Shown here: piece by piece, positions 1-18,314 of the stretch
Layout of the letters: each line of letters begins with the position of its first letter
How positions within the stretch are numbered: position 1 is the first letter of the stretch
Origin: a virus
Direction: 5' to 3' (one strand)
IMG/VR virus record: IMGVR_UViG_3300048804_000205
Coordinates: 1-21,605 of that record
Length of the DNA: 21,605 nt
Position numbers and translations under genes: made by a program
Notes under the pieces: model-generated
What the model was told of the DNA's origin: nothing
What the model saw: only the letters and a program-made list of their open reading frames with translations
Databases searched by the model: none

Positions 1-732
1 TTAACGGTAAAAGTCATAGATAGGTAGCGCGTGTAGGAAGAGCTCGAACCGCTGCTCGTAGTCCTTGCGGTTCATTATGTGCTTGGCTCTGATGGTGCCG
101 CTTGGTAGGGTGTGGAGGACCATACAGATGTCTGGGTAGTCACCAGTCATTTCTCCCCAGGCCATCGCGTAGGCGGCACATTGGATTTCCATTGACTTGT
201 GAGTGGATTTCCCTGTCTTGAGGTCGATGAGCATTAGCTGGCCGTCTTTGTTGCGGCCTATTGCATCGGCTGTTCCTGCGTAGTGATGAGTGTCACTGTT
301 AACCTGCACCTCAACTGAGGGTGCTTGAGCTCCGATGGTTGTGGTGTAAGTGACTGGGGCGAATCCCCACTCGGCTATCCAGGAGTCAAGTTGCCTGAGG
401 GCTTTGGTGATAACCTTGTCCCCTTCGTAGGGTTTGTAGTCCACCTCTTCACCCTTGAGCTTGCGTTCCAGGAGCTTGTGTATCGCCTTACCACGGTCTC
501 CGGCTGAGTCTCTGATGATGAGGTGTCGCTTCTTGGCTGCGGCTAAGGTTTCTGGGAGTATGTGTGGGATCTGGTAGGGGGTTTCCTTGAGGGGTTCCAG
601 TGCCTGTGCTATGTAGTCCACCGCTGAGTTCGCTGCCCACTGGATGAGGAATTGCTTGTCACCCACCATCCCTAGGACGTGTGTGACGCGGGGGAGTGAC
701 TCGCCTTTTACTGTGTAGAACTCTTTATCCAT
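1..732 (-). CDS. PD-(D/E)XK nuclease (Cas4/RecB-like)
   Basis: A 243-residue protein ending exactly at the window edge with TAA. It has the RecB/Cas4-type nuclease layout: an N-terminal helical part with an RGKAIHKLLE segment (His85) as in the G-x3-H-x3-E element, then Asp156 in GTAD, the Asp170-Leu-Lys172 core in LIDLKTGK, and the following Gln184-x3-Tyr188 helix. These are the metal-binding and catalytic residues of the fold, and all are present, so activity is likely. In phages and archaeal viruses such single-domain enzymes act as recombination or DNA-processing exonucleases. No four-cysteine Fe-S cluster like that of true Cas4 is visible. The ATG at 732 overlaps the upstream zinc-finger gene by 8 bp, suggesting coupled translation. 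The exact substrate cannot be inferred. Confidence 0.85.
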   Translation of the reverse strand: MDKEFYTVKGESLPRVTHVLGMVGDKQFLIQWAANSAVDYIAQALEPLKETPYQIPHILPETLAAAKKRHLIIRDSAGDRGKAIHKLLERKLKGEEVDYKPYEGDKVITKALRQLDSWIAEWGFAPVTYTTTIGAQAPSVEVQVNSDTHHYAGTADAIGRNKDGQLMLIDLKTGKSTHKSMEIQCAAYAMAWGEMTGDYPDICMVLHTLPSGTIRAKHIMNRKDYEQRFELFLHALPIYDFYR

Positions 733-910
733 CTTTTAGTTCCTTCATTCGTTGGAGGCGTCGTTCGTAGTTCTGGTGTAACCTCCAACAGTCTGGACAG
801 TAGTGGCGTCCGTGGTGGTATATGATATACGTATCATTGATTTCATCGAGGGATTTCTTGCACTTGTCACAGATGAGTGCAGGAGCTCCGCTGTTTGTTT
901 CAAGGTACAC
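725..910 (-). CDS. Small zinc-finger protein, probable leaderless GTG start
   Basis: A 61-residue protein with two CxxC knuckles, Cys14/Cys17 and Cys38/Cys41, separated by 20 residues (treble-clef or zinc-ribbon spacing), then a basic, helical C-terminus. The only plausible start is GTG at 910. It has no convincing Shine-Dalgarno sequence, but a TATATA-type box is centred about 26 bp upstream, which fits an archaeal leaderless mRNA. Its end overlaps the nuclease gene by 8 bp, so the two probably form an operon and may act together. Family not recognised; DNA or RNA binding or an accessory role to the nuclease is inference only. Confidence 0.7.
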   Translation of the reverse strand: MYLETNSGAPALICDKCKKSLDEINDTYIIYHHGRHYCPDCWRLHQNYERRLQRMKELKDG

Positions 911-932
911 CTAAGAAGTATTAGACTTCAGG

Positions 933-942
933 GTATATAATA
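933..942 (-). promoter_or_regulatory. Archaeal-type TATA box for the zinc-finger/nuclease operon
   Basis: On the minus strand the string TTATATAC (940 to 933) is centred about 26 bp before the GTG at 910, the usual distance from TATA box to transcription start in archaea. Transcription would begin at or next to the start codon. The promoter call rests on spacing and sequence only. Confidence 0.5.
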
Positions 943-971
943 ATATGTATAAATTATTCAGTGGAGTGGTT

Positions 972-979
972 AAAAAAAG
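972..979 (-). terminator. T-run terminator of the leftward micro-gene cluster
   Basis: Minus-strand sequence CTTTTTTT lies 7 bp after the stop codon of the 33-residue gene. No strong stem precedes it. Oligo-T tracts alone can terminate archaeal RNA polymerase, and the next promoter-like box lies just downstream, so this is a reasonable operon boundary. Confidence 0.4.
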
Positions 980-985
980 AGTGGC

Positions 986-1087
986 CTAGAACCCCAACAT
1001 CAACCATAGGATTGCGAGGGGTGCTAGGCACAGCGCACATATAATAAAGTATAGCGGCCAGGAAAAGTGTTCAGTTTCGTTTGTCAT
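986..1087 (-). CDS. 33-residue single-pass membrane micropeptide
   Basis: A short reading frame starting ATG at 1087, 13 bp after the stop of the preceding gene, and ending TAG. The first ten residues are polar and acidic (MTNETEHFSW). The remaining 23 are almost all hydrophobic with two Cys and one Pro, forming one membrane span that runs to the C-terminus. The upstream GAAGG is a weak ribosome site. It sits last in the micro-gene cluster, just before a T-run. Function unknown; membrane-targeted host interference or lysis help is speculation. It could be a chance frame, but spacing, composition and position favour a real gene. Confidence 0.5.
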   Translation of the reverse strand: MTNETEHFSWPLYFIICALCLAPLAILWLMLGF

Positions 1088-1100
1088 GTTGAGCCTTCTT

Positions 1101-1343
1101 TTAACTGAGGTCTTTTGCTAGTTCCTTTACTTTCTTGAGTTCCTCAGTACATCGGGGGCAGAAAGGTCTTGCCGTCCCCTCGTTATACCCTGTGTCCTCA
1201 TTCATCTTGTAGTCTATGTTACGGTCCACTACTATGTTGATGAGCTCACCCATTGGTTTCCCAGTGTCGGGGTCCTGAGCTTCCCATTCGTAGGTTACGG
1301 TGAGGACATTACAGGGACATTGGAAGGTGTCGGTGTAGGTCAT
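1101..1343 (-). CDS. Small four-cysteine zinc-binding protein
   Basis: An 80-residue protein with Cys9-x-Cys11 near the N-terminus and Cys62-x2-Cys65 near the C-terminus, probably one zinc site, followed by a Lys/Glu-rich helix. A frame with TTG at 1361 is possible, but ATG at 1343 is preferred: it follows GGGAGA at a suitable distance and begins one base after the stop of the upstream gene, as elsewhere in this cluster. Family not recognised. Its place in a run of tiny leftward genes behind one promoter suggests an early viral accessory protein. Confidence 0.7.
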   Translation of the reverse strand: MTYTDTFQCPCNVLTVTYEWEAQDPDTGKPMGELINIVVDRNIDYKMNEDTGYNEGTARPFCPRCTEELKKVKELAKDLS

Positions 1344-1344
1344 A

Positions 1345-1695
1345 TTATTTTCTCCCGTCAAGCCAGCAACGGATGTTGGTGTAGCCGGTTTTCATGCCAT
1401 CCCAATATCTCACCATATTGTAGGTGTCGAGGCAGCGATCTCTTTCCTTACACTTGTCTACTTCTTTGAGCTCATATTCTATGTGCTCTCGGAGACACTT
1501 CTCAATGTGCTGGTCTTGGTACTGTTTGAAGTGTCTCTTGATCTCTGTTAACTCTAGTATGTGGTCGTAGTACGTGACGCCTTCAGGTTTTGCAGGCCCC
1601 CACATACAACGGTTGACCTTATTTTCTAGGTCTCGTAAGTCGCGTTTCAATACGCAGATCTCGTTAGCCAAGTATTCAATCTCTTCACGACTCAT
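1345..1695 (-). CDS. Hypothetical coiled-coil protein
   Basis: A 116-residue, highly charged protein. Residues 1-30 have a heptad-like pattern (leucines and isoleucines among Glu/Arg/Lys), and residues 45-85 are again strongly helical and Glu/Lys-rich. Six cysteines are scattered without a classic zinc-finger spacing. Start ATG at 1695 overlaps the stop of the upstream gene as ATGA, with GGAGAGGTGGAG just upstream as ribosome site. No known family recognised. Probably a small early protein acting through protein-protein contacts. Confidence 0.75.
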   Translation of the reverse strand: MSREEIEYLANEICVLKRDLRDLENKVNRCMWGPAKPEGVTYYDHILELTEIKRHFKQYQDQHIEKCLREHIEYELKEVDKCKERDRCLDTYNMVRYWDGMKTGYTNIRCWLDGRK

Positions 1696-1853
1696 ATTAA
1701 CTCCACCTCTCCTTTGTTCTTCATCTGCTCAAAGATCTGACCCCGCACGTCCTCAGCAGTGATGACAAGGATGACAACAGGGAGCGCGTCTGGGATGCCT
1801 ATGTCAAGGAGCTTTACTTCTCCTATTACTACACCATTAGAGGTTAGGTCCAT
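1692..1853 (-). CDS. Hypothetical 53-residue protein
   Basis: Small frame from ATG at 1853 to TGA at 1692, preceded by GGGTGA six bases from the start. It overlaps its upstream neighbour by 17 bp, and its stop overlaps the next ATG as ATGA. The protein has a hydrophobic beta-rich middle (residues 15-31, IPDALPVVILVITAED) and a charged helical tail. Family unknown. The tight overlaps on both sides and the good ribosome site are the evidence that it is real. Confidence 0.65.
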   Translation of the reverse strand: MDLTSNGVVIGEVKLLDIGIPDALPVVILVITAEDVRGQIFEQMKNKGEVELI

Positions 1854-2016
1854 TGTTTGTCACCCATTCCCGCATGTGCTGTTCTAACGATGGGATAAAC
1901 TTAGGGTCAACACTGATATTTATTATCTCCCCTTGTCGTGCTTCCATACGTAAATGATGACGAATATGGCTGCTTACCCAATGCCATACTTCTTCTTCAA
2001 CGTCTTCCCAGTTCAT
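1837..2016 (-). CDS. Hypothetical 59-residue acidic/His-rich protein
   Basis: Small frame from ATG at 2016 to TAA at 1837. GGTGA stands six bases before the start, and the ATG overlaps the upstream TGA as ATGA (2013-2016). A second ATG four bases upstream is in another frame and stops after seven codons, so it is not used. The N-terminus is acidic with three Trp, followed by a His-rich stretch (HIRHH) and an amphipathic C-terminal helix. No family recognised. It belongs to the co-translated leftward micro-gene cluster. Confidence 0.65.
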   Translation of the reverse strand: MNWEDVEEEVWHWVSSHIRHHLRMEARQGEIINISVDPKFIPSLEQHMREWVTNNGPNL

Positions 2017-2192
2017 TCATTATCACCTGTTTCCAGCTGTTCGATCCGCCCTTCACAGTTGCAGACTTCATTAGTTATTCGCGCTGCTAACTGGTTGATC
2101 TCTTCTTGCATCCGTTCCATCTTGGCTGCTGTTGCCCTAGCGAAGGCCTTAAAGTATTCAATCTCTGATTCTATCTCTGGTTGCGTTCTCAT
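2013..2192 (-). CDS. Hypothetical 59-residue coiled-coil protein
   Basis: ATG at 2192 is chosen over an upstream in-frame start at 2216. It has AGGAG seven bases upstream and forms an ATGA overlap with the preceding gene (stop 2189-2191). Nearly the whole protein is a heptad-patterned helix (PEIESEIEYFKAFARATAAK, then MERMQEEINQLAARI), followed by a Cys-x-Cys and an acidic tail. Likely an oligomerising small protein. Family not recognised. Confidence 0.7.
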   Translation of the reverse strand: MRTQPEIESEIEYFKAFARATAAKMERMQEEINQLAARITNEVCNCEGRIEQLETGDNE

Positions 2193-2386
2193 TGGGTTCT
2201 CCTCACAAAGGCACACTGGAGTACCTCCTTGCTGCGGTCTATGTAGTTGTTGCAGCTATAGCAACGGCGAATGGAGCTCAGGCCGTTGCGATCTTTCTTA
2301 GTCCATCTGTGCATAGGACACTTGACTCTTGCTATCTGCATCCTATAGCCAGACCAGTTGATAGGCATTTCGTGAGCTACTTGCAT
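2189..2386 (-). CDS. Small zinc-ribbon-like basic protein
   Basis: First gene of the leftward micro-gene cluster, 65 residues from ATG at 2386. Metal ligands are visible: Cys23-x2-His26, Cys42-x2-Cys45 and a further Cys58, in a Lys/Arg-rich protein, which suggests a nucleic-acid-binding zinc ribbon. No good Shine-Dalgarno precedes ATG 2386. The in-frame ATG at residue 7 is an alternative start. A CTTATATATC box 33-40 bp upstream could give a short-leader transcript, as in archaea. Function unknown; a small early regulator is plausible. Confidence 0.6.
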   Translation of the reverse strand: MQVAHEMPINWSGYRMQIARVKCPMHRWTKKDRNGLSSIRRCYSCNNYIDRSKEVLQCAFVRRTQ

Positions 2387-2570
2387 AATATATTCACTAG
2401 AAAAGAGAAGGTGATGAAGATATATAAGGGTATGGAGACGTATAATTTATGAAACCGCTGGCTTTAATATCGCTGGGAACATACCCATAACACAAGTGGA
2501 TCTTTTCTCATGAGTAGAGGCCCCTGAAAGCTTCCTTTTCTCAACGTGGTTTTCCTAACAGGGGTCTAAC

Positions 2571-2772
2571 TTTTCCTAGTGATTTAGCCCGCGAGAGCCT
2601 GGGGGTAGTTTAGATGTATAAAAAATAATACTATGTTGTAGGGGTATAGCACTCATTATATATATCAATTGTGTATGGTTAATGCACACATCTGTACATT
2701 AGCACTAGGAAAAACTATCATTTTAGGGTATAGGCACCTTCGCGCAGAAATTCACTAGGAAAACTAGGAAAA
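2571..2772. repeat. ACTAGGAAAA iterated motif (4 perfect copies)
   Basis: The decamer ACTAGGAAAA occurs at 2704-2713, 2754-2763 and 2763-2772 on the plus strand and at 2571-2580 on the minus strand. Looser copies lie at 2393-2403 (one G missing) and 2550-2557 (minus strand, TAGGAAAA). The last copy abuts the TATA-like box of the HNH gene, where an archaeal BRE or an activator/repressor site would lie. Probable operator repeats. Confidence 0.7.
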
Positions 2773-2781
2773 GTTTAAATC
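2767..2781 (+). promoter_or_regulatory. BRE/TATA promoter of the HNH gene
   Basis: GGAAAAG followed by TTTAAATC (2774-2781), centred about 26 bp before ATG 2804. This is the expected geometry for an archaeal leaderless promoter, and no Shine-Dalgarno lies before the ATG. The upstream purine/A-rich part coincides with the last ACTAGGAAAA repeat. Confidence 0.55.
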
Positions 2782-2803
2782 CAATCAAAACAGAGAATAT
2801 ACT

Positions 2804-3331
2804 ATGCAGTTAGAAGATATCCTTAGCTTTTACGCCAACCCCCATGTTATCCTAGTTCGGCTGAAAGCGCGGTGTACTGTGGCTGGCGAGCCAGGGGACG
2901 AGCATTGGATATACAGGGGAGCGCATAAAGACGATGGTCAGTTCTTCCTAAGCCACAAAGAGGTGGCCCCTCTCCCCAGACAGGTTAAAGTTCGTAACGG
3001 GAAGACCGTCTCAGCCCGCAGGTTAATGTACCTGCTTTACTATAAAGAGATCCCTGATGGCGCAAACGTTAAGACGTTGTGTGGCGTACGCTCTTGTATG
3101 AACCCCGACCATTTAACCATACGCGGCAGAGAAAAATATGAAGATGGGATTTTGCGCGGTGTACTTGTCAATGTTCAAGACAAGCCAGCGATCTCACCTG
3201 TTAAGCAAGAGTTAAAGGATGTGGATGAAGCTGAGTGTATTTTTGGTGCCAAGGCCATCGAACGAGAGCACCGCAGGTCTATCAGCGTGACCTCTAAAGA
3301 GTATAAAAAGTTTAGAGAAGAAGATATTTAA
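2804..3331 (+). CDS. HNH-fold protein lacking the first catalytic His
   Basis: A 175-residue protein, the only clear rightward gene. Residues 68-104 resemble the HNH_3-type phage/homing endonuclease core: a helix SARRLMYLLYYKEIPDG, then VKTLCGVRSCMNPDHL with Cys93, Cys98, Asn100 and His103. In this family the usual motif is V-x-H-x-C; here the His position is Thr91. The zinc-knuckle ligands and final His remain, but the general-base His is missing, so a DNA-binding or regulatory role seems likelier than cleavage. The C-terminal 60 residues are charged and unlike any domain I recognise. The gene stands alone behind an iteron-rich promoter, which also fits a regulator. It is probably leaderless. 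Confidence 0.7.
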   Translation: MQLEDILSFYANPHVILVRLKARCTVAGEPGDEHWIYRGAHKDDGQFFLSHKEVAPLPRQVKVRNGKTVSARRLMYLLYYKEIPDGANVKTLCGVRSCMNPDHLTIRGREKYEDGILRGVLVNVQDKPAISPVKQELKDVDEAECIFGAKAIEREHRRSISVTSKEYKKFREEDI

Positions 3332-3360
3332 AAAAGAATATCCCCCCAAGAGGGGGTAAG
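3330..3360. terminator. Bidirectional terminator between convergent genes
   Basis: A CCCCC/GGGGG hairpin (3343-3347 with 3352-3356, short loop CAAGA on the plus strand reading) lies between the convergent HNH and membrane-protein genes. In the leftward direction it is followed by a T-run (minus-strand TTCTTTTTT, 3338 to 3330), an intrinsic-terminator layout. In the rightward direction the following TTT is short, so it works better for the leftward unit. Confidence 0.6.
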
Positions 3361-3400
3361 AGGGGTTTAAATTACTCTTACATTAGGGGGTTAGTCGTAT

Positions 3401-3679
3401 TCAATATATAAGACTTGCTGCTATCACTACCAAGAGTGCCGTGGTAAAAAACATTAAATTACGTCCACACCTGAGCATACGATAGTTCTCTATTGCAGTA
3501 CTATTGATCTCGTTTGTCGTTGCAGAGATCGCTGCTAAAGCCTTAAAGACTACTGTATGTTCAGCGTCTAAGTTTTCGAGCAGCCCTTGTATCTCGGCAT
3601 TGGTAAACACACCTTCCTGAAAACAATCGCTGATTGTTTGAACCGTCTCTGTTGTTGTTGTCGATGTTTCGTATTGCAT
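3401..3679 (-). CDS. Small tail-anchored membrane protein
   Basis: A 92-residue protein from ATG at 3679 (residue 14 of a longer open frame). This start is chosen because GGGAGGGTGA lies immediately upstream. Residues 1-70 are soluble, Thr-rich at the start and then helical. A Cys-Gly-Arg-Asn hinge then leads to one C-terminal membrane span (residues 72-91, FFTTALLVVIAASLIY) with almost no residues after it, a tail-anchor arrangement. No homologue recognised. Its ribosome binding site is exactly complementary to the loop of the upstream hairpin RNA, which suggests tight translational control such as is used for toxic or lysis-related membrane proteins. It is transcribed convergently to the HNH gene and ends before a terminator hairpin. 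Confidence 0.7.
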   Translation of the reverse strand: MQYETSTTTTETVQTISDCFQEGVFTNAEIQGLLENLDAEHTVVFKALAAISATTNEINSTAIENYRMLRCGRNLMFFTTALLVVIAASLIY

Positions 3680-3683
3680 ATTC

Positions 3684-3694
3684 ACCCTCCCAGG
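3684..3694 (-). promoter_or_regulatory. Ribosome binding site complementary to the upstream hairpin loop
   Basis: In the leftward mRNA these 11 bases read CCUGGGAGGGU, the Shine-Dalgarno region of the tail-anchored protein gene starting at 3679. They are the exact reverse complement of the 11-nt loop (minus-strand ACCCUCCCAGG, 3813 to 3803) of the hairpin 109 bp upstream. Pairing would block ribosome entry. Confidence 0.6.
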
Positions 3695-3721
3695 GATCCT
3701 ATGCCTATTGATTAGCATGTC

Positions 3722-3750
3722 ATTGTATATATAATAAACCTAAGTGTCAA
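3722..3750 (-). promoter_or_regulatory. Promoter of the tail-anchored membrane protein gene
   Basis: On the minus strand TTGACA (3750-3745), a 17-bp spacer and TACAAT (3727-3722) match a bacterial sigma-70 promoter closely. The same stretch contains TTTATTATATATAC, which could serve as an archaeal TATA box. Either reading starts RNA around 3705-3717, downstream of the hairpin, so this RNA would carry the ribosome site but not the hairpin. Confidence 0.45.
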
Positions 3751-3784
3751 GTATGAATTATTGTATAAAATGTCAAGTATGAAT
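3745..3784. repeat. 14-bp direct repeat TGTCAAGTATGAAT
   Basis: Two perfect copies of TGTCAAGTATGAAT at 3745-3758 and 3771-3784, start-to-start distance 26 bp (about 2.5 helical turns). The copy nearer the membrane protein gene contains the TTGACA string of its promoter. The layout fits an operator, possibly for the XRE-type repressor encoded next door. Confidence 0.6.
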
Positions 3785-3837
3785 GGGGGCCACAGAGGCA
3801 CTCCTGGGAGGGTAGTGTCGGCGCTGTGGCTTCCCCC
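3785..3837 (-). ncRNA. Candidate hairpin riboregulator with anti-Shine-Dalgarno loop
   Basis: On the minus strand this 53-nt element folds as follows. An outer stem pairs GGGG near 3837-3834 with CCCC at 3788-3785. A 2-nt bulge follows, then a perfect 7-bp stem (GCCACAG with CTGTGGC, 3830-3824 with 3795-3789), an asymmetric internal loop, and a 6-bp inner stem (3819-3814 with 3802-3797, one G-U). The 11-nt apical loop is ACCCUCCCAGG. The whole loop is complementary to the ribosome site at 3694-3684. A TTTAAATA box (3866-3859, minus strand) lies about 26 bp before the 5' edge of the stem, so a discrete RNA starting here is plausible. It could instead be a leader or 3' region of the XRE transcript, or a DNA dyad bound by protein. 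Confidence 0.55.
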
Positions 3838-3856
3838 ATAGTAAAAGAAAAGATAG

Positions 3857-3866
3857 TATTTAAATC
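3857..3866 (-). promoter_or_regulatory. TATA-like box before the hairpin element
   Basis: Minus-strand GATTTAAATA, centred about 26 bp upstream of the first G of the hairpin (3837). It shares the TTTAAAT core with the HNH promoter. If used, transcription would begin at the hairpin base. Evidence is spacing and sequence only. Confidence 0.35.
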
Positions 3867-3878
3867 TACTTACTAGGC

Positions 3879-4130
3879 CTACTCAACACGCGCCTTTTCA
3901 CGCAGTCTGCGTGGCTGGATCTTGAGAACAGTAGAGATCCGTCGTATGATCTCTTCATCAGGTTGGAACGTAACGCCACTCTCAATACGGCTGTAGGTAG
4001 GCTGTGTCGTATGGACCAGACGGGCCATCTGTGCCTGTGAGAGACCTCTCTTTAGCCTCGCTATCCGCATGTTGTTAGCGCGTTTTATAATATACAGGTC
4101 ATCGTTAAATTCATTTTCCGCTTGGGGCAA
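3879..4130 (-). CDS. XRE-family helix-turn-helix repressor
   Basis: An 83-residue protein starting with TTG at 4130 behind a near-perfect AGGAGGTGAG ribosome site. Residues 20-75 form a Cro/C1-type domain: MRIARLKRGLSQAQMARLV with the helix-turn-helix, TTQPTYSRIESG as the recognition helix and turn, and ISTVLKI as the closing helix. The C-terminus is short and basic (RRLREKARVE), with no dimerisation or protease domain, so it is a small Cro-like or antitoxin-like regulator. It sits between the late operon terminator and the hairpin/operator region, and the 14-bp direct repeats downstream are candidate binding sites. It probably controls the neighbouring membrane protein gene, its own promoter, or a lysogenic switch; the target is inference. 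Confidence 0.88.
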   Translation of the reverse strand: MPQAENEFNDDLYIIKRANNMRIARLKRGLSQAQMARLVHTTQPTYSRIESGVTFQPDEEIIRRISTVLKIQPRRLREKARVE

Positions 4131-4150
4131 ATCCTCTCACCTCCTGGGGC

Positions 4151-4194
4151 GTATTTTATATACAGTACCTACTAGGGGTTCACTTATATAAAAG
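4151..4194 (-). promoter_or_regulatory. Promoter region of the XRE-type regulator
   Basis: Minus strand shows CTTTTATATAAG (4194-4183), which contains the archaeal consensus TTTATATA, and a second box GTATATAAAATAC (4163-4151). The first would give a start near 4162 and a leader of about 30 nt carrying the strong ribosome site. The second would start near the TTG itself. The first is preferred. Confidence 0.5.
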
Positions 4195-4223
4195 GCTTTG
4201 CAACAACAAACGACAATATTGAT

Positions 4224-4259
4224 AAAAAAAGACAACAGCCGCTCACGGGGAGGGCTGTT
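4224..4259 (-). terminator. Intrinsic terminator of the late operon
   Basis: Minus-strand AACAGCC (4259-4253), a 12-nt loop and GGCTGTT (4240-4234) form a perfect 7-bp stem. GTC and a seven-T run (4230-4224) follow. The stem overlaps the last codons and stop of the holin-like gene. No gene continues leftward for 90 bp, so this closes the structural operon. Confidence 0.8.
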
Positions 4260-4527
4260 CGGGTTGTACTGGTAGTTTTTCGATGACGGCCTTACCTAAC
4301 CCATAAATTCCACTGCTCAAGAGGCCTAATACAAAGCCATCTCTAAGTGCAGTCATTGGGTCAAAGTTAGGATACATCATAGACACACTGACAAATATTG
4401 CCATTGATAACCCTAATACTAATATAGGGATCAGCTTTGGCATAAGTACAGGGTTTACTCTGGGCTCTAGTGCGGTCTTGATAAACTCAACGAGCACGAT
4501 AACGAGGCCAGCGACACCCATATACAC
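4243..4527 (-). CDS. Holin-like small membrane protein
   Basis: A 94-residue protein with three hydrophobic stretches: about 5-19 (VAGLVIVLVEFIKTAL), 31-51 (LIPILVLGLSMAIFVSVSMM) and 64-82 (GFVLGLLSSGIYGLGKAVI), then a short Pro/Gln/Glu-rich tail. Size, topology and the position as last gene after the tail fibres are those of phage holins, which form membrane pores at lysis. The start is GTG at 4527; an ATG two codons later is the alternative. GAGGTGATA at 4551-4543 is a ribosome site at somewhat long distance, and a TTTTATAC box lies about 26 bp before GTG, so a separate promoter is possible. No endolysin gene is adjacent. Confidence 0.65.
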   Translation of the reverse strand: MYMGVAGLVIVLVEFIKTALEPRVNPVLMPKLIPILVLGLSMAIFVSVSMMYPNFDPMTALRDGFVLGLLSSGIYGLGKAVIEKLPVQPEQPSP

Positions 4528-4589
4528 GGTCGGGTCGATAGTATCACCTCGTATAAAATATACAGTTGTGAAGTGATAAAGAGTTCGAT

Positions 4590-6725
4590 TTAAGCTATCT
4601 TATTCCCCGCAGCCTTCCATGCTGTTTTATCGGTGCCAGTTCCACCATCATAAAAGATGGTGCTGTGTCCACTCTCTTTTAGATTATTTCCTGTAACCAG
4701 GTTGTTATTGCTACCGATCCCAACCCAAAATCCATACCCCGTTCGCGGGGCTGCTCCCCCTTTATAAGCACTATTCCCAAAGGCGATGTTTTCACTAGCA
4801 CCACCCGCTGCACCCGTAGAAAAGGCGAGATTCGTCCACGCATTATCTGTGTTGGCTCCGTTTTGTGTCACGACGTTGCCGTTCATAGTTGAGTACAGGG
4901 CATCAGCTAACTCTAGGCCATTCTTACCGTTATAAAAGACCTCGTTATCGTTAACACACCCATACGAAAGAGTAACCCCAACAGTCGTGTCGGATCCGAT
5001 GCCGCTGGCGTGGTTCCCAACTACTGCATTTCCAGAAACGTTCATATACTCACATCTACAAGCGAGAAAGATCCCATGCCCGTCTGTTGGACCCCCACCA
5101 CTACAGGTGTTACCGATAATCACCGATCCGGCGCCATCAGCTTCAATGTCGATGTTAGCGTAAGACGCATAGTACAGGCTGTTGCCACAGATAAGGTTCT
5201 GCACACCCCCATTGACAGCAACACCCTCAAAAGGTCTACCTGTGGTATCCCCCGAAGAAGTGCACCCCACGACTGCACAGTGTTCACAGTTGAAGATGAA
5301 GTAAGCAGCTATCGCGTGGGTGGTAACAACACAACTACGAACCATACAATCGTTAGAGTTAATCAAAAAGAAACCACCGAACTCAAGGGACATACAACCA
5401 ATAATATGAACATAGGCAGCGTGGTCACAATACACAAGGTAACTCCCATTAGAGGCCCCAACACACGAACACCCCTCAATGGTGACGTGTTCGCAATATA
5501 GGACATTAATACCACAGTATGTGTTTGTAAAGTGAACCTTTTGGACACTAACATACGGAGGTTCTATACAACCAGAAAGATAGATCCCATCCATAGTAGG
5601 CACCCCAGCACCACCAGAACTTGCGATTGTGAGGTCACGGATGATAATACCTGAGTTTCCCATGTCCCCATCAGCGTTACGTATTGCCCCCGTGCCAACA
5701 CCACCTACAGTACTGAGTATTGTGGCCCTGCCCACCCCACATAAAGTGATGTTATCATAGACGTTCACTGCCGCAGCGAGGTTATACGTGCCGTCTAGGA
5801 TCATAACGGTTCCACCACCAACTGCGTGAGCTGCGTCAAGTGCGGCCTGTATCTGTACATCATCTGCCGTGCCATCACAGATGAAGTCCGCCCCTACCTT
5901 TTTGAGTGATGTTGACTGAGCAACAACCTGTGTAGCCTGTATAGGTCCAATGTCACGCGCTAGGTCAGCATACTGGTTTGCTAAGTTAAACATTCGAGCG
6001 TAAGTGTGGGGGGCACTCACCGAGGGTGCTACGGCCCACGTGTGATTAGTGTGTGGGACCCTCCAGCGTTCCGCCTCGTAGTTCTGTTCGATCTCTAATG
6101 TTGTGAGGACTCGGTTAAATATACGAATAAGGTAGACTTTACCGCGCAAGACAAAAACAGAAGTGCCACCATCAGAGACTTGGAAATTGAGTCCCTGTAC
6201 TGGGGACTCAGCATTGGTTCCGGTGTTATTGTAAAGCCCTCTAAGGTAAATGTTAGTGTTGTTTGCCCCCCCAGTCTTGTTATGGGTTACAACCACATGA
6301 TATACTTGACCGATGGTGATGGCCGCAGCGGTCTTAACCCTGATTTTAAGCGACCACCCAGCACCATAGGATTCAAACCATATTTTCCCATCGTCGTTGA
6401 AATAATAAAGGAACCAACCCGCTGCCGTAGTATCGTCAAAATCCCCGCAGATCTCTTGGCTCTGTCCGGCACCCGTGCTTGCGCTAATCGAGAACACTGC
6501 TTCAACCGAGAATGTATCAGTGAGTCCCCACGTACCCGAACTCCGCATATACGCGGTGAGACCATCAAAACCATAGAAGGGTGCCTTGCTCGTGGCGATA
6601 CCCTGCTTGGCGTCCCAGTTAGAGAGGTCGTATGAACCAGGGGTGATGTGGTTTATGATGGGACCTATCGACTCACTAAAGTCATACTTATGCGTGCACC
6701 CTACCTCAGTTGCATCAAAGATCAT
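4590..6725 (-). CDS. LamG plus beta-helix tailspike/fibre protein
   Basis: A 711-residue protein whose ATG overlaps the preceding TGA as ATGA. Residues about 10-228 form a LamG/concanavalin-like sandwich (HKYDF near the start, GLTAYMRSSGTWGL, SVEAVFSI, YHVVVTHN, and the closing QNYEAERWR helix). Such domains bind glycans. From about residue 275 comes a right-handed parallel beta-helix of the NosD/pectate-lyase kind: GADFICDGTADDVQIQAALD, GGGTVMILDGTYNL, then many turns with V-x-G-N and N-x-I-x-G-N patterns. The end, GTGTDKTAWKAAGNKIA, matches the end of its upstream paralogue. It probably forms a trimeric host-binding or depolymerising spike on the tail tip. No catalytic residues can be assigned. 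Confidence 0.8.
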   Translation of the reverse strand: MIFDATEVGCTHKYDFSESIGPIINHITPGSYDLSNWDAKQGIATSKAPFYGFDGLTAYMRSSGTWGLTDTFSVEAVFSISASTGAGQSQEICGDFDDTTAAGWFLYYFNDDGKIWFESYGAGWSLKIRVKTAAAITIGQVYHVVVTHNKTGGANNTNIYLRGLYNNTGTNAESPVQGLNFQVSDGGTSVFVLRGKVYLIRIFNRVLTTLEIEQNYEAERWRVPHTNHTWAVAPSVSAPHTYARMFNLANQYADLARDIGPIQATQVVAQSTSLKKVGADFICDGTADDVQIQAALDAAHAVGGGTVMILDGTYNLAAAVNVYDNITLCGVGRATILSTVGGVGTGAIRNADGDMGNSGIIIRDLTIASSGGAGVPTMDGIYLSGCIEPPYVSVQKVHFTNTYCGINVLYCEHVTIEGCSCVGASNGSYLVYCDHAAYVHIIGCMSLEFGGFFLINSNDCMVRSCVVTTHAIAAYFIFNCEHCAVVGCTSSGDTTGRPFEGVAVNGGVQNLICGNSLYYASYANIDIEADGAGSVIIGNTCSGGGPTDGHGIFLACRCEYMNVSGNAVVGNHASGIGSDTTVGVTLSYGCVNDNEVFYNGKNGLELADALYSTMNGNVVTQNGANTDNAWTNLAFSTGAAGGASENIAFGNSAYKGGAAPRTGYGFWVGIGSNNNLVTGNNLKESGHSTIFYDGGTGTDKTAWKAAGNKIA
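4594..4610. repeat. 17-bp identity between tailspike gene 3' ends (copy 1)
   Basis: GCTATCTTATTCCCCGC here is identical to 6726-6742, the same codons at the end of the neighbouring tailspike gene. The flanking 40 bp are also alike. This indicates duplication or recombination of the 3' module. Confidence 0.7.
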
Positions 6726-17100: not shown

Positions 17101-18314
17101 GCAAGCCCAGCTATAATAATAAATGCGTTTTGAATGGGTTGTGGGAGTGAAGTAAAGGCGGTTACAAGTCTCGTGATCCCGCCGATTATCTGCTGGATGA
17201 CGGGCATGAACCCTGTTAGAACACCTATAATAGCAATACCGAGCGGGGCAAGTGCGACTTCTAAACCGTGTTTGAGCATCTCAAGCTTCTGGTAGAAGTA
17301 CATCGTTTTGTCGGCGGCTTCCTCCAAGCTTACGGGTGCCTTATTAAGCATTTCCAGGAAGTCTTTAAAGTCAAGGCGGCCTTCTTTTATAGCGCCGACA
17401 ATTTGTGCTGAGAACCGATTTCCAAAGACAACCGCAGCTTGACCTGCTGTTATTGAACCATCCTTAATCCCTTGGAAAAAGGCAGCCATCACGTCGCCAG
17501 AGTCCTTGGCGCTACCCTTCATCTTAGTTAGCTCAGTATTAATGGCCGCTATGATAGGGGTCATCTGCTTTGATACAGTACCCCCACCCGTCATTGCCTT
17601 TGCGAGATTAGACCACCCATAATCCATCCCACGCATAATATCCGATGTGCTGATGCCCACCTCATTTAAGGACGAGAACAGGGCAATGGTTTCAGGGAGG
17701 GTGAACCCATACGCCTGTCTCATTACCTGTCCTTGTTTATCAACGTCGTTGGTGAGTGTTGTTATCGGGACATGGGTTTTAGTATATGCTGTGTATAATA
17801 AGTCGAGGGCTTTCGCAGACTCGGCAGCGGGTACTTTCCACTGTAAGAGCATTGAAGAAACATTTTCAGCCAGCTTTTGTGGTGCCTCCTGTGACATTCT
17901 GGCGAGGTCTAAAAATTTCTTTGAGGTTTCGGGGATAGCGTAGTTGAGCTCATTGAGCTTATCATAAACAATAGAGATAACCTGGGCGACTTCTTTTGCG
18001 CTTTGTGGTACATGACTAAAAACAGTATCAAACCCACGTTTAAGCTTCTCCAGTTCAGCGCCGGTTGTCCCAGTCTGGGCCTGGATATCTTTGTAAGCGC
18101 CACCCACCGTGACTGCGCTCTGCACGGCGGCAGCACCGATAGCCATTATAGGTAGGGTAATGCCAGCGGTCATGGCAGCGCCGACAGCGGTAAAGCCAGC
18201 GCCGATGGTCTGTAGGGCGGTCATCTCCGTCCTTAACTTACCAAATGCTGCAACAACAGGGGTGATATCCCCCGTCACCCGCACTACTAAATCCGCTAAT
18301 ACATTGCCCGCCAT
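14112..18314 (-). CDS. Tail tape measure protein (TP901 type)
   Basis: A 1400-residue protein, the longest in the window, from ATG 18314 with GAGGAG upstream. Residues about 70-290 match the TP901/PhageMin_Tail core (AAVQSAVTVGGAYKDIQAQT, VTTLTNDVD-like and GISTSDIMRGMDYGWSNLAK segments). Residues ~350-475 are strongly hydrophobic with several helices able to cross a membrane (LGIAIIGVLTGF, NAFIIIAGLAAIIGPLLIVI, LAPAIIAIGLVLAP), as expected for a protein that helps DNA cross the cell membrane. Then come four 42-residue repeats, four ~22-residue repeats and six 22-residue repeats, described separately. The Gly/Ala-rich C-terminus ends in a charged helix. At about 1.5 angstrom per residue it would set a tail near 200 nm. 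It follows the G/GT chaperone genes that load it. Confidence 0.92.
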   Translation of the reverse strand: MAGNVLADLVVRVTGDITPVVAAFGKLRTEMTALQTIGAGFTAVGAAMTAGITLPIMAIGAAAVQSAVTVGGAYKDIQAQTGTTGAELEKLKRGFDTVFSHVPQSAKEVAQVISIVYDKLNELNYAIPETSKKFLDLARMSQEAPQKLAENVSSMLLQWKVPAAESAKALDLLYTAYTKTHVPITTLTNDVDKQGQVMRQAYGFTLPETIALFSSLNEVGISTSDIMRGMDYGWSNLAKAMTGGGTVSKQMTPIIAAINTELTKMKGSAKDSGDVMAAFFQGIKDGSITAGQAAVVFGNRFSAQIVGAIKEGRLDFKDFLEMLNKAPVSLEEAADKTMYFYQKLEMLKHGLEVALAPLGIAIIGVLTGFMPVIQQIIGGITRLVTAFTSLPQPIQNAFIIIAGLAAIIGPLLIVIGLLISSFSTIAMGALAFAGAMITLAPAIIAIGLVLAPIVIALAALAAGFALAYTQSSTFRGILGTLAGDLMAFGGHVAAAFGFFTKGEWKEGLAELKKGFDDLFNDLKKIDWHSVGKTIIEEIQKGVKDLMNTWGPIWDEIKTSFTKWVSSVNWQQLSKDIPNGIINGIKELQNLLGPVWDGIVTSFKTWMASVPWGQLAQDIPNAIINAIKLGMATIGPVWDFIATSFNNWKNSVPWAQLAADIPAKIQQGIQTLQATFGPVWDFIKTSLINWIQSVTWSDVGEQIGLAIRNAIKTALNTLVGGLGELIPTENTKSASLLEVGFNAATSFLSGFQKGVGNIWQLIVDGLEPLAGKVADYMENKVNWSAIGTFIGNILGSMISGAMTALFGDIAQGKTPAGDNTGLDSLYSRQNPSATTWSAGSTGASEFGTQTSGWSKLQEAGNTAGDALVKGFVAGAQSAMATIDWGAIVTAAIMGSVFPNAEPDKKTGKPHLLGQPDKGDMSDPANWQDMIGGWFDDLFVDKTDFSNDPYHAKNKPTGGDRFGGATISIASKFVPVAGAVWDFLSKGVASLAVQIVEKGGEALDTLKAVNGKVVDFIVNVVKRGGEWVNTFAGKVVDFVVNIVKRGGEWLANFAGKVVDFTVNIIKQGGEWLDTLKTTVINIAVAIGSFVTSVADSWLNTIHNVASGIASWATGVADAWLNAVHNTATAIGSWATGVADAWLNAVHNTATAIASFATGVADSWLNSIHNTAVQIASFLTGVADSWIGSLHSTSVQIWSFLTGVADGWLNALHSINIQGIWQGILGGLPSLTIDIFGVLKLAEGGLIGWGKAVANKLGYRTEPAPPTPVDWASKGSATTTSAEATSAHAEGILALASGIRSLATGAFGEEAPAYMTSKPQLALIGEAGPEAVIPQKYWWAIQPWVLQALPKLGGGATIGPGATGSIANAIEINITGNTILDDRAARNLAKKIADTIKHERGII
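14689..15084 (-). repeat. Six 66-bp (22-residue) repeats in the tape measure gene
   Basis: Phase marks (ATCAG-like codons for the Ala-Asp segment) at 14706, 14772, 14838, 14904, 14970 and 15036 are exactly 66 bp apart. Each unit encodes a form of TGVADSWLNxxHNTAxxIxS. Twenty-two residues equal two hendecads, as in tape measure coiled coils. Confidence 0.85.
15085..15345 (-). repeat. Four ~22-residue GGEW repeats in the tape measure gene
   Basis: Units with GGEWLxTFAGKVVDFxVNIVK recur; the Gly-Glu-Trp codons are spaced 66 bp at 15112, 15178 and 15244, with a diverged fourth unit 75 bp further. They adjoin the six Ala-Asp-Trp repeats and share their 22-residue period, so both may derive from one ancestral unit. 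Confidence 0.75.
16164..16667 (-). repeat. Four 126-bp (42-residue) GPVWD repeats in the tape measure gene
   Basis: Four successive 42-residue units begin GPxWDxIxTSFxxW and contain SVxWxQLxxDIPxxI. The fourth is diverged after SVTWSDV. The DNA period is 126 bp, for example CCCACACAGGGCC near 16278 versus CCCAGACAGGACC near 16404. Confidence 0.8.

Follow-up and report, generated by a model that had tools for sequence, protein, structure and literature searches.

A hairpin loop complementary to a downstream ribosome-binding site: a possible cis-acting translational switch in a putatively archaeal virus

In the 21.6-kb virus record analysed here, the loop of a minus-strand hairpin is perfectly complementary to the Shine-Dalgarno (SD) region of the next gene downstream, which encodes a tail-anchored membrane protein of 92 aa. 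The sequence arrangement is real and probably non-random, and coincidence is an unlikely explanation for the loop-SD match. Given the sequence and the folding predictions, we favour a cis-acting translational switch of the tail-anchored gene, to which we assign a probability of about 0.45, i.e., somewhat below even odds.

The proposed switch would operate as follows. Long RNAs, which either start at the hairpin foot (promoter P1) or read through from the upstream regulator gene, would continue into the tail-anchored gene. Within these RNAs, the anti-SD segment in the hairpin loop would form a helix of 11-12 bp with the SD, which is located 108 nt further downstream, such that ribosome binding would be blocked. 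RNAs from a second promoter (P2, 3750-3722) would be without the anti-SD segment and would be translated. That is, the membrane protein would be made only during P2 activity, perhaps under control of a regulator at the TTCATACTTGACA repeats. The analysis shows the sequences (Table 1), their complementarity, predicted energies and the occurrence of the elements in one relative; activity of both promoters, synthesis of the long RNAs and repression by pairing in vivo are what we infer. If true, the promoter-inside-helix switch known from T4 would also be used by archaeal tailed viruses, with a hairpin loop as its ready-made anti-SD arm. It would be a rare example of timing control at the RNA level in a virus that probably infects methanogens.

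Table 1. Features of the region from the regulator gene to the tail-anchored gene. Positions refer to the window, i.e., the whole stretch of 21,605 nt that was analysed; the relative is the related record IMGVR_UViG_3300046703_000105.
Feature	Positions	Strand	Remark
Cro/C1-type helix-turn-helix regulator gene, TTG start	3879..4130	-	Pfam HTH_3 2.5e-12; directly upstream of the intergenic region
TTTAAATA box, putative archaeal promoter P1	3857..3864	-	sequence; identical in relative
TCTTTTCTTTT tract, upstream of hairpin	3843..3853	-	sequence; identical in relative
Two-tier hairpin	3784..3838	-	-24.4 kcal/mol, z -1.79
Apical loop ACCCUCCCAGG, anti-SD segment	3803..3813	-	perfect complement of 3684-3694
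TTCATACTTGACA direct repeat, first copy	3771..3783	-	exact repeat
TTCATACTTGACA direct repeat, second copy	3745..3757	-	26 bp from first copy; one mismatch in relative
Putative promoter P2, located between loop and SD; TTTATTATATATA with archaeal TATA-like part at 3738-3726	3722..3750	-	also reads TTGACA-17-TACAAT
CCUGGGAGGGU, SD region of tail-anchored gene, loop target	3684..3694	-	duplex with archaeal anti-SD -12.0 kcal/mol
Gene of 92-aa helical protein, C-terminal hydrophobic helix (tail-anchored type)	3401..3679	-	no known family

Genomic context and likely host

The window carries tail-spike, tape-measure, connector and exonuclease genes. On its minus strand, a holin-like gene (4527-4243) is followed by the regulator gene, a 199-bp intergenic region and the tail-anchored gene. 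The regulator protein has a 95% identical counterpart in the relative. For the 92-aa protein, no family match was found; a C-terminal hydrophobic helix is its only recognizable trait, and its structure model has a pLDDT of 53.

An earlier note on this sequence had taken the virus for an archaeal one, which is a reasonable, though inferred, assignment. TTTAWATA boxes are found at 1.96 per kb in intergenic vs. 0.05 per kb in coding regions of the window, and ATA codons are frequent in its genes. Furthermore, a gene of the relative for a CcdA-like membrane protein (L009:7930-8583, matching phrog_33510) has only archaeal matches in a genome scan, with Methanosarcinales being closest and most frequent (39-44% identity). 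Taken together, these traits make an archaeal, methanogen-type host likely. The CcdA-like gene itself is possibly a host-derived redox gene within the virus or part of a host flank.

Relatives were searched among viral contigs using five proteins and two DNA patterns as queries, which returned the one relative. No DNA match was obtained from phage and plasmid collections, nor any protein match there for the membrane protein or the regulator. Peptide patterns of the membrane protein had no hit in genome contigs or in 238 genomes of the Methanoperedens class, no relative of the capsid was present in a 393-genome sample of the Methanoperedens phylum, and a DNA search of host genomes gave two weak, chance-like matches only. 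With the host group being only likely, such blanks in host-genome searches mean little. Two distant relatives of the regulator, L004 and L005, are of a generic kind and have nothing comparable.

Structure of the hairpin

The two-tier hairpin with its loop at 3813-3803, as described in the earlier note, is present on the minus strand. It is composed of a basal stem (UGGGG/CCCCA), a 3-nt GAA bulge, the stem GCCACAG/CUGUGGC, an internal loop, the stem CACU/AGUG and the apical ACCCUCCCAGG. Its stability is modestly above that of dinucleotide shuffles, 11/200 of which are as good. The apical 11 nt had been regarded as an unpaired loop that is matched from stem to stem. The match does fill the apical segment, but the predicted fold pairs the inner CC with GG (two G-C pairs), which leaves a minimal loop of 6 nt (CUCCCA).

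No Rfam family is matched at the gathering threshold, and matches below the threshold are at chance level. We looked for an excess of loop-like copies across the window and found none, such that the idea of a repeated element was dropped. An intrinsic terminator was rejected as well, given that no T-run follows the hairpin.

Loop-SD complementarity and its chance expectation

The loop (3813-3803) and CCTGGGAGGGT (3694-3684) form a perfect 11-nt inverted pair with 108 nt between the arms that can be extended by one U-G pair, exactly as had been claimed. When the gene's own upstream intergenic region is compared with its start region, shuffling yields a match of at least 11 nt with p=0.0012. For the other 23 window genes tested, leader-to-start-region matches reach at most 8 nt, and none of the 115 leader genes from Methanosarcinales loci (0/115) reaches 11 nt.

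The alternative that survives best, although we consider it doubtful, is a fortuitous complementarity in which a purine-rich SD meets a C-rich loop. The hairpin would then be an ordinary one, i.e., the end of the regulator mRNA, an RNA-stability element or a palindromic DNA site. In line with this, chance alone should give about 1.2 perfect 11-nt inverted repeats (within 300 bp) per window, the hairpin's z-score is only -1.8, and the loop-SD match was chosen after the fact. Among the ~200 minus-strand hairpins at -12 kcal/mol or better, four loops match a start region over at least 11 nt. These include the loop at 3813-3803 as well as one inside the tape-measure gene (at 17705) that matches the very same SD (3694-3684). 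Coincidence is at odds with the p-value for the gene's own leader and with the empty background set. Moreover, the match fills the apical loop on one side and, on the other, the SD of the gene that comes next downstream, and it is unchanged in the relative. In view of the three other loops, the earlier note's claim that chance can hardly account for the match is somewhat overstated.

Putative promoters, repeats and transcript ends

The P1 box has the sequence of a consensus TATA box and comes straight after the regulator's stop codon and a T-rich tract. Using the TATA-to-start spacing usual in archaea, P1 transcripts would start right at the hairpin foot, i.e., at about 3837-3833. Since stop codon and T-rich tract directly precede it, the box could also belong to a terminator, and the TCTTTTCTTTT tract may serve as a U-rich terminator for the regulator mRNA.

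For 3750-3722, a promoter between hairpin and gene had been suggested that would make an mRNA without the hairpin; a consensus match, and thus a putative promoter, is indeed found there. Among positions 1-5000, P2 is the best sigma-70-type match (11/12 positions). The relative shows an identical TATA-like part and TTGACG in place of TTGACA. Just upstream of P2, the two exact TTCATACTTGACA repeats form a possible, even likely, regulator site.

Between hairpin and gene, an intrinsic-terminator scan, read with the caveat that a U-run may suffice for termination in archaea, returned no terminator-like site. The only U-run after the hairpin is UUUU at 3770-3767. Without a terminator-like site in between, the P1 RNA would be a long leader.

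Predicted RNA pairing

The 12-bp loop-SD duplex has a predicted energy of -23.8 kcal/mol. In RNA-RNA interaction prediction, as also suggested in the earlier note, the tail-anchored gene is the best loop target among the 25 start regions of the window (-28.7 vs. -17.6 for the next), i.e., it ranks first by 11 kcal/mol. Within the P1 transcript, the predicted loop-SD pairing probability is about 1, and that of an unpaired SD is 0.004. For the unpaired SD, respective values are 0.29 on average for shuffled leaders (0/200 as low) and 0.49 when the leader is removed. The short P2 transcript has a freer SD, yet a weak local fold at SD/AUG. These model results support that loop-SD pairing is able to block translation.

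With regard to the hairpin itself, the nested loop-SD form (-52.2 kcal/mol) is favoured by about 5 kcal/mol over the structure with the hairpin kept (-47.4 kcal/mol). A pseudoknot that keeps the lower tier and pairs the loop is estimated at about -47.5 kcal/mol when a penalty of 9 kcal/mol is assumed. As the upper tier is weak, the lower one might persist during loop-SD pairing. For the relative, the nested model predicts a loop-SD pairing probability of only 0.39 vs. ~0.6 for the competing hairpin. It also counts against the cis switch that the hairpin is dispensable for simple sequestration and that its own stability is unremarkable. We consider it improbable that a hairpin RNA, in trans or as a cis kissing-loop pseudoknot, shuts off translation of the membrane protein by pairing of its preformed loop to the ribosome site, for which no example is known to us from an archaeal virus.

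The earlier note had proposed a small RNA or a readthrough leader and leaned towards action in trans. Repression by loop-SD pairing agrees with the predicted energies, but we favour a long leader acting in cis because no terminator-like site precedes the gene and because a promoter is located between the arms, as in T4 gene e. For a purely trans-acting RNA, P1 would have to produce a short hairpin RNA that ends before the SD and whose loop binds the SD of P2 transcripts. Such an RNA would start exactly at the hairpin foot, its best target would be the tail-anchored gene by the 11 kcal/mol given above, and masking of ribosome sites in trans is known for the archaeal sRNA162 (PMC3510493). Against it stand the terminator scan, in which just the UUUU run (possibly enough for an archaeal end) was seen after the hairpin, and the fact that any continuing transcript would carry its own target and pair in cis; an Rfam match is missing, too. 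We therefore rate a separate trans-acting small RNA as quite improbable.

Comparison with the relative

The relative is colinear with the window and about 70-87% identical in aligned blocks. Hairpin, loop and SD are all retained there, as are the two TATA-like boxes; with a single relative and a local identity of ~95%, an unchanged loop and SD are uninformative on pairing. Two substitutions and one deletion are located at the hairpin foot, and the hairpin is equally stable.

The tail-anchored protein has a homologue of 66% identity in the relative. Codons 1-31 of its gene show one synonymous change, compared to 14 in the latter half of the regulator gene, which hints at additional constraint near the start site or at a recent exchange. 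The C-terminal two thirds (3401-3586) diverge fast, with 60% nucleotide identity and codon changes that are nonsynonymous in 29 and synonymous in 11 cases.

A DNA-level role of the two inverted copies as protein-binding or recombination sites, e.g., of an invertible promoter segment, which usually looks like a promoter flanked by inverted repeats, would fit exact 11-bp copies 108 bp apart, but it is very improbable, since the orientation is the same in both genomes, no recombinase was found among the proteins scanned (some ORFs only, with both records being fragments), and a hairpin loop in one copy and an SD in the other would be left unexplained.

Comparison with known systems

The closest parallel of the cis switch is found in phage T4, where the SDs of genes e (lysozyme), soc, 49 and the intron-encoded I-TevI are sequestered in long transcripts, and a late promoter within the structure frees them; for gene e, early long transcripts are silent while late ones, initiated within the structure, are translated (PMC3014915). 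Similarly, the SD studied here is predicted to be paired in upstream-initiated RNA (unpaired probability 0.004; weaker in the relative with 0.39 pairing in the nested model), and the putative P2, a consensus match, is placed between the two arms such that its short RNA would be without the 5' arm. Differences are that the start region in T4 is covered by a local stem-loop, whereas here the loop of a preformed hairpin, located 108 nt upstream, makes up the 5' arm, that the virus is probably archaeal rather than bacterial, and that the gene product is unrelated. By analogy, the arrangement would work like T4 gene e control, and we treat it as a variant and not as a member because its arms are 108 nt apart and one of them is a preformed loop.

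Among archaeal examples, sRNA162 of Methanosarcina mazei (PMC3510493) also masks a ribosome-binding site by RNA pairing and targets a neighbouring operon. It is, however, a separate trans RNA that pairs via a single-stranded linker instead of a loop, and it is without internal promoter logic. In the Halobacterium virus phiH, another archaeal tailed virus with RNA-level control at ribosome sites, an antisense RNA acts on transcript T1 (PMC4284463). That RNA stems from the opposite strand and brings about a cleavage by which the ribosome site is removed, in contrast to the same-strand pairing proposed here.

The resemblance to type I toxin control that had been put forward fits poorly. In both cases, pairing at the ribosome site may keep a small membrane protein repressed, but a type I antitoxin is a separate antisense RNA. 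Hairpin and gene share one strand here, a layout that excludes a type I toxin-antitoxin locus, and no toxin homology was found. As for described systems of this layout in archaeal viruses, of which the earlier note knew none, our limited search of open-licence papers likewise found no such case.

Observations in the vicinity

Past the membrane gene, an HNH endonuclease gene is encoded on the opposite strand (2804-3331), and the relative has another HNH type beside its copy of the membrane gene (L009:2414-2722). The differing types suggest turnover of homing endonucleases at this spot. Further along, the intergenic region 2571-2772, which precedes the minus-strand genes at 2386, contains four copies of TTTTCCTAGTG (one with a mismatch) in both orientations, where 0.5 are expected. 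This cluster is a putative operator-like element; the relative has shorter TTCCTAGTG copies only.
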